Shown one piece after another: positions 3,492 to 7,480 of a stretch of DNA of 16,506 nt; within the stretch, counting starts at the first letter, position 1, and each line of letters starts with the position of its first letter. A model generated the notes under the pieces. The model made no database searches. It was not told the DNA's origin and saw nothing but the letters and a program-made list of their open reading frames with translations. The position numbers and the translations under genes were made by a program. Source of the DNA: Streptosporangiaceae bacterium (GTDB lineage: Bacteria; Actinomycetota; Actinomycetes; Streptosporangiales; Streptosporangiaceae); contig JASHSZ010000427.1 in the NCBI GenBank assembly GCA_030040815.1, positions 1-16,506 of the forward strand, in the 5' to 3' direction.

Positions 3492-4088
3492 TCACCTCCG
3501 GGCGATCGGCGGGTCGCTCGGATGCTCGGCCAGGGGCGTGACGTCCACCGTCTGGTACGGGCTCAGCGGCAGCGAGTCCAGGAAGGTTTGCAGCTCAGTG
3601 ACATCCTGGGAGCGCCACAGGCCGAGCGCGCGTCCCTCGCCTGGCAGCACCCACAGCCGGAGCAGGTGCCGCTGCCCGCCGAGTTCATTGGCCCGCACGG
3701 CCTCGCGCGCTTCGGCGTCCGCGACGTCCTGGCTCGGCGTGCCGTCCGGCACGGTTCGCGTGAAGATGGTGAAGAACTCCGGGCCGACTGTGGTCGGCTC
3801 GGCTTCGGGGTCGTTCGGATGCCGTCCTAGCGGCGTGACCACGTCGGTGCGCCAGACGTGCAGCGGCATGGACGCGAGGACCTTGCCCAGCTCGTCGGCG
3901 TCGGCCGCGGCGAACAACCCGAACGTGCGCCACTCTCCTGGCCGCAGCGGCGGACGCCAGAGCCGCAGCACGTGCCGTTGCGCCGCCAGTTCGCGCGTGT
4001 GAGCGGCTTCGCGGGCGCGGACGTCGTCGATCGCCTCGGCCGGCGTCCCGTCCGGCACGTGCGTGGTCATGCTGACCAGGTACTCCAT
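3492..4088 (-). CDS. Tandem two-domain muconolactone delta-isomerase-like protein
   Basis: The 198-residue protein is two copies of the muconolactone isomerase (CatC-like, ferredoxin-like) fold joined by about ten residues. Domain 1 covers 1-92 and domain 2 about 103-191. Both repeat the same landmarks: a first strand ('MEYLVSMTT', 'PEFFTIFTR'), the identical VPDGTP, an A-REA helix, EL-x-x-QRH-x-LRLW, an L-x-x-x-PL segment, and VTPL-x-x-HP. The known CatC protein is a single domain of about 95 residues that assembles as a decamer and isomerises muconolactone in the beta-ketoadipate pathway. A fused pair with diverged halves suggests a new assembly or a different lactone or dienone substrate. 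No catA or catB homologue is in the window. I chose ATG 4088 because the conserved domain starts there; its ribosome-binding site is weak. The stop overlaps the possible GTG start of the following SDR. Confidence 0.82.
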   Translation of the reverse strand: MEYLVSMTTHVPDGTPAEAIDDVRAREAAHTRELAAQRHVLRLWRPPLRPGEWRTFGLFAAADADELGKVLASMPLHVWRTDVVTPLGRHPNDPEAEPTTVGPEFFTIFTRTVPDGTPSQDVADAEAREAVRANELGGQRHLLRLWVLPGEGRALGLWRSQDVTELQTFLDSLPLSPYQTVDVTPLAEHPSDPPIARR

Positions 4089-4117
4089 GCCTGGCCGGTG
4101 CCCTGGCCAGCGGCGGG

Positions 4118-4828
4118 TCAAACGCCGGGCGAGCCAGTTGTCCCGTTCGCCTGCCACACCGACGCGGTGAGCACGGGCCTGCCCTCGAGGGCGATGCTGG
4201 CCGGGACCTGGTAGCTCGCCAGGCAGCGATACCGGCCACGCGGGAAGTATCGACGGCCGATGTCCCCGGTCAGCACGCTGGCACCCGCTGCCGACGCCGT
4301 GTCCAGGTAGGCGGAGGCCTGGCTGGCGAATTCCCGGTCGTACCAGACATCGCCCGCCAGCACCACCTCCGGGGCAGGGTCGGCCGCGCCGACGTCATCA
4401 ACGCAGGCGGGCCGCGGCACGCCGTTGGCCGCCGTGTTGAGTATGATCGCGGCGCGGCCGAGCGGGTCCGGCTCGCAGGCGATGACGCGGGCCGCGCCGG
4501 CCTTGGCGGCTGCGATCGCCACCAGGCCCGAGCCGGAGCCGAAGTCCAGCACGATACGGCCGGCCACCAGCGCCGCGTGGTCGAGCAGGTACCGGGCCAG
4601 TGCCTGACCGCCTGGCCACGGGGCCCCCCAGAACGGCGGCGACAGCCCGGCTCGGCCGAGGTGGCGCTCGGTCTGTGCCCAGAGTGCGTAGATGTCATCG
4701 GCCTGGTACAAGCTGATTTCCGGCACGAACGGCACCACGGCCAGCCGGGTGGTGGACCGGACGAACGACGTCGGCGTCACGCTGTTTATTTTGTCGGCCC
4801 TCGGCACGCTGGCGGCCTGAGTCAGCAC
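4118..4828 (-). CDS. Class I SAM-dependent methyltransferase (PrmA / ETF-beta lysine methyltransferase-like)
   Basis: The 236-residue protein carries motif I LDFGSGSGL at 94-102, the acidic end of strand 2 at E119 (IACEPDP), and a post-strand-4 motif VVLAGDVWYD at 155-164. Upstream are 'EISLYQADD' and 'PPFWGAPWPGGQALARYLLDH', which are typical of the group containing ETF-beta lysine methyltransferase and ribosomal-protein L11 methyltransferase-like enzymes. It should transfer a methyl group from SAM, probably to a protein side chain, though small-molecule acceptors are possible. The GTG start at 4828 shares one base with the TAG stop of the upstream gene (TAGTG), so translation is probably coupled. 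No good ribosome-binding site is seen, and a GTG 17 codons later is an alternative. The stop lies 29 bases before the tandem isomerase-like gene. Confidence 0.82.
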   Translation of the reverse strand: MLTQAASVPRADKINSVTPTSFVRSTTRLAVVPFVPEISLYQADDIYALWAQTERHLGRAGLSPPFWGAPWPGGQALARYLLDHAALVAGRIVLDFGSGSGLVAIAAAKAGAARVIACEPDPLGRAAIILNTAANGVPRPACVDDVGAADPAPEVVLAGDVWYDREFASQASAYLDTASAAGASVLTGDIGRRYFPRGRYRCLASYQVPASIALEGRPVLTASVWQANGTTGSPGV

Positions 4829-5124
4829 TAGTCGGGCTGGTGGCGGTAGCTGTCCGGCGGCAGGTCGGCGATCTGGTGCAGGATGTGATCGCCTTCGGAG
4901 ATGAAGTCGAGTTCCCCGCTCCGCGGGTCGGCGAGCAGCCGGCCGATGCTCGCCACCGCGACTCCCGCGCGCTGTTCCAGCAGGGCGAGGTGCTGCAGCC
5001 GCTCGCTGTGGCGCTGGGGAGCGGGCAGGCTGAGCGCCTGATGCACCGCTGCGAGTAAGTGCCGCATCGCGGCGCAGCCCGCGCAGCCTGCGGCTGGTGC
5101 GCGCCCAGCATCGGCGTCAGCCAC
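4828..5124 (-). CDS. Small unknown protein with a CxxC near its N-terminus, first gene of the leftward operon
   Basis: I do not recognise this 98-residue protein. It has an Ala-rich start with a C14-x-x-C17 pair (GCAGC), then mostly helix-forming sequence ('MRHLLAAVHQALSL', 'SERLQHLALLEQRAGVAVASIGRLL') and a short acidic C-terminus. There is no signal peptide or membrane helix. The gene is supported by a clear ribosome-binding site (GGGGAG, seven bases before the GTG at 5124), by its place at the head of the operon, and by a stop that overlaps the methyltransferase start by one base. The CxxC could bind a metal or serve in redox chemistry, but a single pair is weak evidence. It could be a small partner of the enzymes encoded downstream. 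Confidence 0.6.
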   Translation of the reverse strand: MADADAGRAPAAGCAGCAAMRHLLAAVHQALSLPAPQRHSERLQHLALLEQRAGVAVASIGRLLADPRSGELDFISEGDHILHQIADLPPDSYRHQPD

Positions 5125-5205
5125 GTTCCGTCTCCCCGGTTATCGCTGGCTGCGGGGGTGTCCCCGGCTGGCCCGCTGCGACCAGTCAGAGGCACTGTCT
5201 CACGT

Positions 5206-5236
5206 ATCGCATTCGATTGATAGCTGTGTGTAATCG
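5206..5236. promoter_or_regulatory. Candidate TetR operator cluster in the divergent promoter region
   Basis: The space between the two divergent operons contains ATCG-CATT-CGAT (5206-5217) and, overlapping it, CGATT (5214-5218) paired with AATCG (5232-5236) across 13 bases. TetR-family regulators commonly bind dyads beside their own gene, and this is the most dyad-rich part of the region. The arms are short, so the assignment is tentative. Confidence 0.3.
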
Positions 5237-5289
5237 TGTCGCAGCCGCACGAGGCCGGGTGCGCGAGGGAATTCACTGCCCTGCCGTCA

Positions 5290-5318
5290 TTGACCAATCA
5301 AATGAAGAGAATTTTAAT
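5290..5318 (+). promoter_or_regulatory. Sigma-70-type promoter for the TetR gene, predicted leaderless
   Basis: TTGACC (5290-5295) and TTTAAT (5313-5318) each match the housekeeping consensus in five of six bases and are separated by exactly 17 bases, in an AT-rich island of an otherwise very GC-rich region. The A of the TetR ATG at 5325 is the seventh base after the -10 box, where transcription should begin, so the mRNA would have no leader. The absence of a properly spaced ribosome-binding site agrees. The -10 box lacks the usual A at its second position. Confidence 0.6.
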
Positions 5319-5324
5319 ACCGCT

Positions 5325-5957
5325 ATGGGTCGGATAGCTGGTGTCACGGCGGACCAAACCCGCGAGCGGCTGCTACGCGCTGCGGCTGACGTGTTCGCCG
5401 AGCGCGGGTACGACGGCACGCGCGTCGCCGACATCGCGGTGGCGGCGGGGGTCAGCAACGGCGCCCTCTACGCGCACTTCGAATCCAAGGCGGAGCTGCT
5501 GCTGGCCGCGCTGCGCGCGCACGGCCGACGGGAGCTGGCCGACCTGCTGGCCGCAGATCCCGGCAGGCCCGTCACCGAACTGCTGCTCCAGGCCGGCCGG
5601 TCGCTGCCGCGGCGGTGCGACTCGCGCGGCTACCTCATCGTCGAGGCGCTGATGGCGGCCCGCCGGGACAGCGACGTGGCCGGGCCGATGCGGGACTACA
5701 CGGCCGAGCGGGCCGACTGGCTGGCCGGGCTGATCGAGGCCGGCCAGGCCGACGGCGAAGTGGATCCCGCGGTGTCGCCCGCCGCGGTGGCCCACTTCTG
5801 CCTGCTGCTCGCCCTGGGCAGCTCGCTGCTGCCGGCCGACCTGCATCCGATCGATGACGAGGAGTGGACCGCGCTCTTGACGCGCGTCGTAAGCGCTGTG
5901 GCGTCGTCAGGCGCGGCCCGAGACCACAACATGCAGCTGGTTGGACAGCAACCCTAG
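5325..5957 (+). CDS. TetR/AcrR-family transcriptional regulator
   Basis: The 210-residue protein has a standard TetR DNA-binding domain at about 10-57: TRERLLRAAADVFAERGY, then the helix-turn-helix 'VADIAVAAGVSNGALYAHFESKAELLL'. A variable all-helical ligand domain follows. The frame stays open far upstream, but those residues show no family similarity, and the ATG at 5325 is preceded by a good promoter with its predicted start site on the A of the ATG. It is the first gene of a rightward operon with the R2lox-like oxidase, which starts after 41 bases, and it diverges from the methyltransferase/isomerase-like/SDR operon. It most likely represses one or both operons and responds to a lipid or aromatic ligand; the ligand is unknown. 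Confidence 0.9.
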   Translation: MGRIAGVTADQTRERLLRAAADVFAERGYDGTRVADIAVAAGVSNGALYAHFESKAELLLAALRAHGRRELADLLAADPGRPVTELLLQAGRSLPRRCDSRGYLIVEALMAARRDSDVAGPMRDYTAERADWLAGLIEAGQADGEVDPAVSPAAVAHFCLLLALGSSLLPADLHPIDDEEWTALLTRVVSAVASSGAARDHNMQLVGQQP

Positions 5958-5998
5958 AGCGCCGCACGCGCTCGGAAGATGGCAGAGGAGGGAGCCAC

Positions 5999-7003
5999 AT
6001 GACGGATCGCAAGAGTCCCACGGCGGTGCTGCGCGAAGGACCACGTGCCCTGAGCGACGAGCAGGTACGGGAGATCGAGGAATCCGATCTTCAGGCGGTG
6101 CTGGACGTCGACATCGACGACGTCATCGAGTACGTCCACCGGGACCTGAAGTCGCTGCCGGACTTCACGACCCTGTATCGCAAGTACCTGAAGCAGCGGT
6201 GGGACGTCTACGAACTCGACTTCACCCAGGACAAGATCGACTGGAACGAGAAGATGAGCGCCGACGAGCGGGAGTCGTTCATCGCGATCTCGTCCGGGTT
6301 CCATCATGGAGAACGGCAGGTCGAGATCGAGCTGCCGGTGTTCATGATCGGGGCCAGCGAAGAGGAGAAGCTGCACATCGCCGCGCAGATCGAGGACGAG
6401 GCGCGGCACACCGTCTTCTTCGACCGGTTCTACCGCGAGGTCGTCGGCATGCAGGGCGACGACATCATGAGCCTTCTCGACGCGTCGTTCCCGTGGGTGT
6501 CGGAGACGTTCGTCGGGCCGTTCGGCCTGCTCGCTTACCAGGCCGAAGAGCTGCGCCGTAACCCGTACGACGAGCGGGCCCGGGTGCGGTACGGGACCAC
6601 CTACTTCCTGTGGATCGAGGGCGTTCTGGCGCTGTCGGTTATGAAGGTGACGCTGTCGTACGCGCGCTGGCGTGGCTTCTTGCCGGCTTACTACACCGGG
6701 TTCACCGCGACCTGCCGGGACGAGTCGCGGCACGTCCAGGGCGGCATGAAGTACCTGCAGGACGCGGTCCGCAAGGACCCGACGATGATCAACGAGATCC
6801 ACGACACGCTGCGGACCATTCTCTCGCTCGCCGGGGTGGCGAGCCGGCGGATCTATTTCGAGCCGCTGGGCTGGACCGAGGACGAGGTGACCGTGCTGTT
6901 CTTCCAGCAGCTCCGGCGGAAGCTGAACGACGTCGGGATCGACCTGGCTCCGGATATCGAAGAGATGCTGCAGTTCGTGCAGCCGCAGCTGGCGGGAGGG
7001 TAA
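5999..7003 (+). CDS. R2lox-like Mn/Fe ligand-binding oxidase (ribonucleotide-reductase R2-like ferritin fold)
   Basis: The 334-residue protein has the two-half di-metal carboxylate pattern of the R2 superfamily: E105 (HHGE), E134-x-x-H137 (DEARH), E207 (LWIEG) and E242-x-x-H245 (DESRH). The residue four after H137, where class I R2 subunits carry the radical Tyr, is F141. Instead V108 (three after E105) and Y202 (five before E207) occupy the places of Val71 and Tyr162, which form an ether cross-link in the M. tuberculosis R2lox Rv0233. The E207-E242 spacing of 35 matches as well. R2lox proteins hold a Mn/Fe centre and a fatty-acid-like ligand, and their physiological reaction is unknown. An N-terminal extension of about 40 residues precedes the usual start of the fold. 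ATG 5999 has GAGGAGGGA just upstream. It lies between a TetR gene and an SCP2-like gene in one operon. An ordinary R2 subunit is unlikely, as no large subunit is nearby. Confidence 0.83.
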   Translation: MTDRKSPTAVLREGPRALSDEQVREIEESDLQAVLDVDIDDVIEYVHRDLKSLPDFTTLYRKYLKQRWDVYELDFTQDKIDWNEKMSADERESFIAISSGFHHGERQVEIELPVFMIGASEEEKLHIAAQIEDEARHTVFFDRFYREVVGMQGDDIMSLLDASFPWVSETFVGPFGLLAYQAEELRRNPYDERARVRYGTTYFLWIEGVLALSVMKVTLSYARWRGFLPAYYTGFTATCRDESRHVQGGMKYLQDAVRKDPTMINEIHDTLRTILSLAGVASRRIYFEPLGWTEDEVTVLFFQQLRRKLNDVGIDLAPDIEEMLQFVQPQLAGG

Positions 7004-7006
7004 GCC

Positions 7007-7480
7007 ATGCCTGAGCCGAGGTTCTTCAGCAAGGAATGGGCCGACGCGGTGAGGGACGCGCTTGTCGCTGGCCCGTCGGAGCAGGTCAAGGAAGGCAAGC
7101 TGCAGGAGTACTGGGACTTCTTCGAGCTGATCAAGAGCATGTACCCGGCGTCGTGGGCACTCGGGTGCCGTGACCTGCCGGCTGAGCTCGGGGGCGGACC
7201 GGCCTACCTGCTCGTCCGGTGGGGTGGCGGCACGGTCACCGACTGCCAGATCGTCGGGCCCGATGACCCGCTCGAGGCGACCTACGTGCTCGGCATGGAC
7301 TATGCGGACTGGCGGGCGCTGCACGACGGCTACGATCCGCAGCGCACGGTCATGTACCGGAAGATCCTGCTCGAGGAGGGCAGCCTGCTCGAGTTCTTCA
7401 AGACGATCTACTTCTTCGTCGAGTGCCTCGGCGTCATCGGCGCGGTGCCGGTCGAGTTTCCGGAGCTCGCGCGGCGCTAG
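7007..7480 (+). CDS. Small SCP2-like (sterol carrier fold) protein
   Basis: The 157-residue protein begins with helices ('FFSKEWADAVRDALVAGPSEQVKEGKLQEYWDFF'), then shows strand-rich sequence including 'GPAYLLVRWGGGTVTDCQIVGPDDPLEATYVLGMDYADWRALHDGYD', and ends in a hydrophobic helix 'SLLEFFKTIYFFVECLGVIGAV'. The 'Y-V-L-G-M-D-Y-A-D-W' segment, followed by a short linker and a hydrophobic C-terminal helix, resembles SCP2 sterol-binding proteins, which carry lipids in a hydrophobic tunnel. I assign the fold by pattern only. It starts three bases after the R2lox-like stop, with its ribosome-binding site GGGAGG inside the end of that gene, so the two are almost certainly co-translated. Its stop shares the bases CTAG with the stop of the convergent transporter gene. 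Confidence 0.68.
   Translation: MPEPRFFSKEWADAVRDALVAGPSEQVKEGKLQEYWDFFELIKSMYPASWALGCRDLPAELGGGPAYLLVRWGGGTVTDCQIVGPDDPLEATYVLGMDYADWRALHDGYDPQRTVMYRKILLEEGSLLEFFKTIYFFVECLGVIGAVPVEFPELARR

Follow-up and report, generated by a model that had tools for sequence, protein, structure and literature searches.

The closest described relatives of the protein analyzed here are the R2-like ligand-binding oxidases (R2lox; PDB entries 3ee4, 4hr0, 7qbp, 6qrz, and 7qbk), whose biological role is given as long unknown in excerpts of two papers (PMC4118035, PMC6060897). GkR2loxI is reported to oxidize alkanes, and its gene lies within an alkane and beta-oxidation cluster; this is the sole report that we found of R2lox activity on an outside substrate (excerpt of PMC10867098). 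SCP2 domains typically bind lipids, and the SCP2 proteins UbiJ and, by proposal, UbiT serve ubiquinone hydroxylation pathways that act on hydrophobic molecules (excerpt of PMC6747719). COQ9, a lipid-binding protein, supports the di-iron hydroxylase COQ7 (excerpt of PMC9774615). Here, we describe a gene pair in a 16,506-nucleotide stretch of DNA (the window) from a Streptosporangiaceae bacterium (contig JASHSZ010000427.1 of assembly GCA_030040815.1), in which an R2lox-like oxidase gene (positions 5999 to 7003, + strand) is directly followed by a gene for an SCP2-fold protein (7007 to 7480, + strand). Both folds are already known; in the open-licence literature, neither the constant pairing of these genes nor the altered active-site motif of the oxidase was found described, and no paper was found that joins R2-like ligand-binding oxidase or R2lox with SCP2 or sterol carrier. 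By analogy with the systems above, we propose, with a probability of roughly 60%, that the pair forms a two-component lipid-oxidation system in which the SCP2-fold protein would present a hydrophobic substrate to the di-metal oxidase.

An R2lox-like oxidase in a clade of its own

The oxidase is encoded by a single open reading frame (ORF) of 334 residues. Hidden Markov model (HMM) alignments to the solved R2lox chains 7qbp, 6qrz, and 4hr0 placed their six metal ligands at E105, E134/H137, E207, and E242/H245, the cross-link valine (Gk V72) at V108, and its tyrosine (Gk Y162) at Y202 (6602 to 6604, + strand), the predicted partner of V108 in an ether cross-link. V108 lies three residues past E105, and E207 lies five residues past Y202. 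Four residues past the first ExxH, F141 occupies what we take to be the radical-tyrosine site of R2 proteins. An earlier note on this DNA, made from its letters, had named the same six ligands, the same Val/Tyr pair, and Phe141 at the radical-tyrosine site, and the alignments agree with it: V108 and Y202 both fall at the cross-link site.

Conservation was assessed in 279 relatives (120 and 119 proteins and 40 locus ORFs, the sets partly overlapping). E105 and V108 were conserved in 276 of these, the remaining 3 being gaps; E134, H137, and F141 were conserved in 278; and Y202, E207, A211, E242, and H245 were conserved in all 279. The conservation of the ligand and cross-link residues far exceeds chance. 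Across R2lox, the cross-link valine is completely conserved (excerpt of PMC6060897), and A211 corresponds to Gk Ala171, the small residue that opens the R2lox ligand channel (excerpt of PMC4118035). Against the oxidase genes of four related loci (L001, L004, L010, and L013; L and G labels are our own for loci and genomes), the ratio of nonsynonymous to synonymous change (pN/pS, substitutions counted directly) was 0.07, 0.13, 0.18, and 0.30, respectively. Synonymous change exceeds nonsynonymous change, indicating that the gene is under purifying selection.

The highest score of the oxidase with the NCBIfam R2lox models was 93.5 bits, where the cut-off is 194; each of six canonical actinobacterial R2lox controls passed at least one NCBIfam R2lox model. 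A tree of 51 rows was built, from which repeats and two proteins canonical by score (L112 and L114) were left out and in which the canonical R2lox rows were actinobacterial only. Fourteen rows of the oxidase clade separated from 27 canonical rows with supports of 100/99 and 99/98, and the oxidase was set apart from class I R2 subunits; a placement inside those subunits would, by the earlier note, have refuted its reading. The L039 branch is very long (8.65), and long branches come together in the tree, which makes the deep branching order uncertain; support is good for the oxidase clade and for the canonical group.

The active site has also been reworked. E105 and V108 lie in a clade-specific HHGERQV motif (residues 102 to 108; 6302 to 6322, + strand), the counterpart of which reads [I/V/L/M][A/G]GEE[A/S]V in the 27 canonical rows; H102 and Q107 were conserved in 275 relatives and H103 and R106 in 276, with 3 gaps at each position. 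The cavity tyrosine of R2lox (Gk Y175), present in 27/27 canonical rows, is replaced by M215 (6641 to 6643, + strand) and is methionine in 279/279 clade rows. This loss is a warning that the chemistry of the oxidase may differ from that of R2lox.

Both ends of the protein differ as well. By a count made by eye, Trp68 corresponds to about Trp32 of mycobacterial R2lox, so that the N terminus is about 36 residues longer. The earlier note had put the extension at about 40 residues; it is real but was overstated as a family trait, since the clade shares only about 18 residues (with script-chosen starts) and the first 25 or so (the KSPTAVLxEGPR region) are confined to the window's own subgroup. Residues D38, D40, D41, and H47 of the clade N-terminal helix were invariant in 30 aligned rows and were conserved in 268, 273, 257, and 263 of the 279 relatives, respectively. 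At the other end, an Ala-Gly-Gly tail (6992 to 7000, + strand) closes the protein. An xAGG C terminus was present in 274/279 clade rows (117/120, 117/119, and 40/40 in the three sets) and an AGG end in none of 33 other R2lox-like proteins (29 canonical R2lox, of which the tree includes 27, plus 4 from two further groups), two of which end in LGG. The tail has a low predicted local distance difference test score (pLDDT) in the model. R2 tails act in docking, and by this likeness the AGG tail is a candidate docking peptide.

R2lox structures were the first matches to the oxidase, at 17 to 25% identity. The six ligands, the Val/Tyr pair, the Phe at the radical-tyrosine site, the channel alanine, and the fold are all those of R2lox; unlike R2lox, the clade has its own N-terminal helix and a constant SCP2 neighbor in addition to its methionine, motif, and tail. 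Further marks of R2lox are a Mn/Fe cofactor, a bound fatty acid, and a completed ether cross-link. Judged from its clade, its score below the cut-off, M215, HHGERQV, and the AGG end, the oxidase is R2lox-like yet not an ordinary R2lox. The assignment in the earlier note to R2lox rather than ribonucleotide reductase stands in its second half and needs narrowing in its first.

Genome and metagenome collections contain many close relatives: 1,247 protein clusters matched, and the best 120 of the 1,247 were 81 to 93% identical. Judging by source names, relatives also occur in Acidimicrobiia/Acidimicrobiales, Thermoanaerobaculia, and Spirochaetaceae. Sources often label the close relatives ribonucleotide reductase beta chains.

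Constant pairing with an SCP2-fold gene

The start codon of the partner gene lies 3 bases past the oxidase stop codon, and its product has 157 residues. The SCP2 fold of the predicted structure was recognized by a match over 128 residues to entries 2cx7 and 1wfr (the latter from Thermus by its title) and by a sequence profile match; both entries align with the same residues, at about 20% identity. Pfam SCP2 gave no match over the cut-off for the window partner, and among 35 relatives, 8 matched it with E values no higher than 1, the best being 4.9e-5. In an alignment of 35 rows, several Trp residues, R118, and E139 were invariant. A match of the partner to OxaG (E = 0.13) was discarded as chance.

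Thirty-eight loci were found through the oxidase alone, two of which (L014 and L037) end at or within the oxidase gene. In all 36 loci with downstream sequence, the partner gene directly follows the oxidase gene on the same strand, with gaps of −4 to +14 bases (starts script-chosen). The same order occurs in genomes G098 and G374; two further genomes are repeats of loci (G001 is L013, and G327 is very probably L026). Of 394 genomes of the class, 52 had some match to the oxidase profile. The clade oxidase, scoring >560 bits where the next best match scored 109, was found in 4 of the 394, and the SCP2 partner in those same 4; in each genome, scoring was limited to the top 5 first-look candidates for the oxidase and the top 9 for the partner.

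By contrast with these loci, the partner profile found nothing in the neighborhoods of the 33 other R2lox-like genes, 30 of which have at least 1 kb downstream (L118, L125, and L126 have only 306, 374, and 450 bases, respectively). Pfam SCP2 matches (E up to 0.01) near canonical R2lox genes were likewise absent from 30 genomes, where every match lay either on a different contig or 600 kb or more from such a gene. Since the divergent partner in G001 escapes the Pfam model too, it is the partner-profile result that carries weight.

No larger conserved cluster was found; only the oxidase-SCP2 pair is common to all loci. The genes for a major facilitator superfamily (MFS) transporter, a TetR regulator, a coenzyme A (CoA)-transferase III, and an S51-like peptidase, among others, vary among loci. 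The suggestion in the earlier note that operon context gives a lead to function is borne out through the downstream gene, although the note did not name the SCP2-fold partner that proved decisive. The constancy of this neighbor suggests that the substrate of the oxidase is a lipid-like molecule handed over by a carrier. A sister group of R2lox never seen without a lipid-carrier-fold neighbor makes the ligand question directly testable.

A candidate two-component system and its alternatives

A working model of the two-component system has the following steps: (i) the locus would be expressed as a TetR-oxidase-SCP2 operon; (ii) the oxidase would activate O2 as an R2lox-type enzyme with a pair of metals (Mn/Fe or Fe/Fe); (iii) the Val108-Tyr202 ether cross-link would probably be made during maturation; (iv) a hydrophobic molecule would then be hydroxylated or desaturated by the oxidase in a two-electron step; and (v) the SCP2-fold protein, as a dedicated partner, would keep the substrate inside its lipid cavity and bring it to the opening of the oxidase channel. 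Candidate docking elements are the N-terminal helix specific to the clade and the conserved C-terminal AGG tail. A narrower version is tentative and falls somewhat short of even odds: a dedicated SCP2 carrier would dock, through the AGG tail and the N-terminal DIDD...H helix, on a Mn/Fe oxidase of the R2lox type and supply it with a lipid or isoprenoid that undergoes C-H oxidation. If this version holds, carrier-bound lipids would be the substrates of part of the R2lox superfamily. The known parallels are partial. UbiJ and UbiT share with the pair an SCP2 protein in the service of hydroxylation, but their hydroxylases (UbiI, UbiH, and UbiF; UbiU-UbiV) differ. In COQ7-COQ9, a dedicated partner that binds lipid serves a di-iron ExxH enzyme, but the fold of COQ9 is TetR-like rather than SCP2, and COQ7 is not an R2lox.

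The strict pairing without common metabolic neighbors and the invariant R118, E139, and Trp residues of the partner would also fit an SCP2 protein that is not a carrier but a substrate, scaffold, or membrane anchor, with the oxidase modifying one of its residues or being held at the membrane by it. The lipid binding typical of SCP2 domains speaks against these roles, and no target motif was identified in the partner, so that we regard them as unlikely.

If the oxidase were a stand-alone R2lox of the kind known from mycobacteria and Geobacillus, with the SCP2 gene as a passenger, the intact ligands and cross-link pair and the first structure match would be accounted for. The two genes are nevertheless adjacent in 36/36 loci and co-occur, the partner was not found beside the 33 other R2lox-like genes, and the oxidase belongs to a separate clade with a reworked active-site motif. 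Because of the adjacency and co-occurrence, the passenger gene was rejected, and a stand-alone enzyme is quite improbable.

Membership of the pair in a secondary-metabolite route, with the MFS transporter, where present, carrying the product, draws on a homologous full-length MFS gene directly upstream in 7 of 41 loci (Nonomuraea, 6; Planosporangium, 1) and downstream, in convergent orientation, in 2 Pseudonocardia loci. Short MFS matches of 28 to 75 residues occur in 2 more loci, but 32 of the 41 loci (some on short contigs, and one a repeat) have no full-length copy. Neighbors at other loci are unrelated; they include a CoA-transferase III, a glycosyltransferase, a P450, and an alcohol dehydrogenase (20 neighbors of 19 loci scanned). 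Such a route is a poor candidate.

Many source entries call the relatives "ribonucleoside-diphosphate reductase beta chain", and the oxidase matches Pfam PF00268. Its Phe at position 141 leaves no radical tyrosine; class Ic R2 proteins likewise have none, so this residue is not decisive by itself against a class I ribonucleotide reductase. Twelve genomes carrying the clade oxidase were searched. All had PF00268 matches, which besides the clade oxidase included a strong R2 match in 7 and another R2lox-like protein in at least 6. Class I R1 was over the cut-off in 8/12 and was not found over it in the isolates Pseudonocardia nigra (G003) and Planosporangium mesophilum (G008) or in two metagenome-assembled genomes (MAGs; G010 and G011) that may be incomplete. 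Class II NrdJ was over the cut-off in 11/12, including these four. R1 adjoins another R2 in 6/12, and in none of the 12 do the oxidase gene and an R1 match share a contig. One genome weighs in favor of a ribonucleotide reductase subunit: in MAG G012, class I R1 is present and the clade oxidase is the sole PF00268 match, perhaps through incompleteness. Given F141, the lack of an R1 over the cut-off in 4/12 genomes, and the separate contigs, a class I R2 subunit was ruled out as hardly credible.

Upstream region and other R2lox-like groups

A TetR-type regulator gene (5325 to 5957, + strand; Pfam TetR_N, 8.7e-18; start codon set by conservation) ends 41 bases before the oxidase gene and has the same upstream place only in L001, L003, L007, and L037 of the 38 loci. 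Directly before its start codon, alignment of the window with these four loci revealed a conserved AT-rich noncoding block (5286 to 5324, + strand). This block is probably a promoter, and the mRNA is possibly leaderless; a scan for a sigma-70 consensus promoter and a terminator gave no match. The canonical R2lox genes of L110, L118, and L126 each overlap a preceding TetR-like gene (assigned by eye) by 4 bases, which raises the possibility that regulation by TetR is ancient in the R2lox superfamily.

Further R2lox-like groups were encountered. In one Pseudonocardia (L124, 1992 to 6034, + strand), a gene for a short R2lox-like protein follows pqqB, pqqC, pqqD, and pqqE (all four over NCBIfam cut-offs), 339 bases past pqqE; in another (L125, 372 to 1367, − strand), such a gene lies 3 bases after a rubredoxin gene. 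These proteins, of 253 to 254 residues, may be oxidases that act on pyrroloquinoline quinone (PQQ) or a cofactor related to it and for which there is a plausible electron donor. In a different group (L101, 6177 to 7148, + strand; L103, ORF 5081 to 6280, + strand), the cross-link pair is gone, with Gly in place of Val and Phe in place of Tyr, but all of the metal ligands are kept; the L103 ORF overlaps the gene for a 928-residue adenylating ligase by 4 bases.

Elsewhere in the window, a flavin adenine dinucleotide (FAD) monooxygenase gene (263 to 1492, + strand), nearest 3-hydroxybenzoate 6-monooxygenase but far under its cut-off, has counterparts upstream only in L001 and L037 of the 38 loci, some of which are short. 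A gene on the − strand (3492 to 4157) encodes two tandem muconolactone isomerase-like domains in one protein and adjoins an SDR gene.
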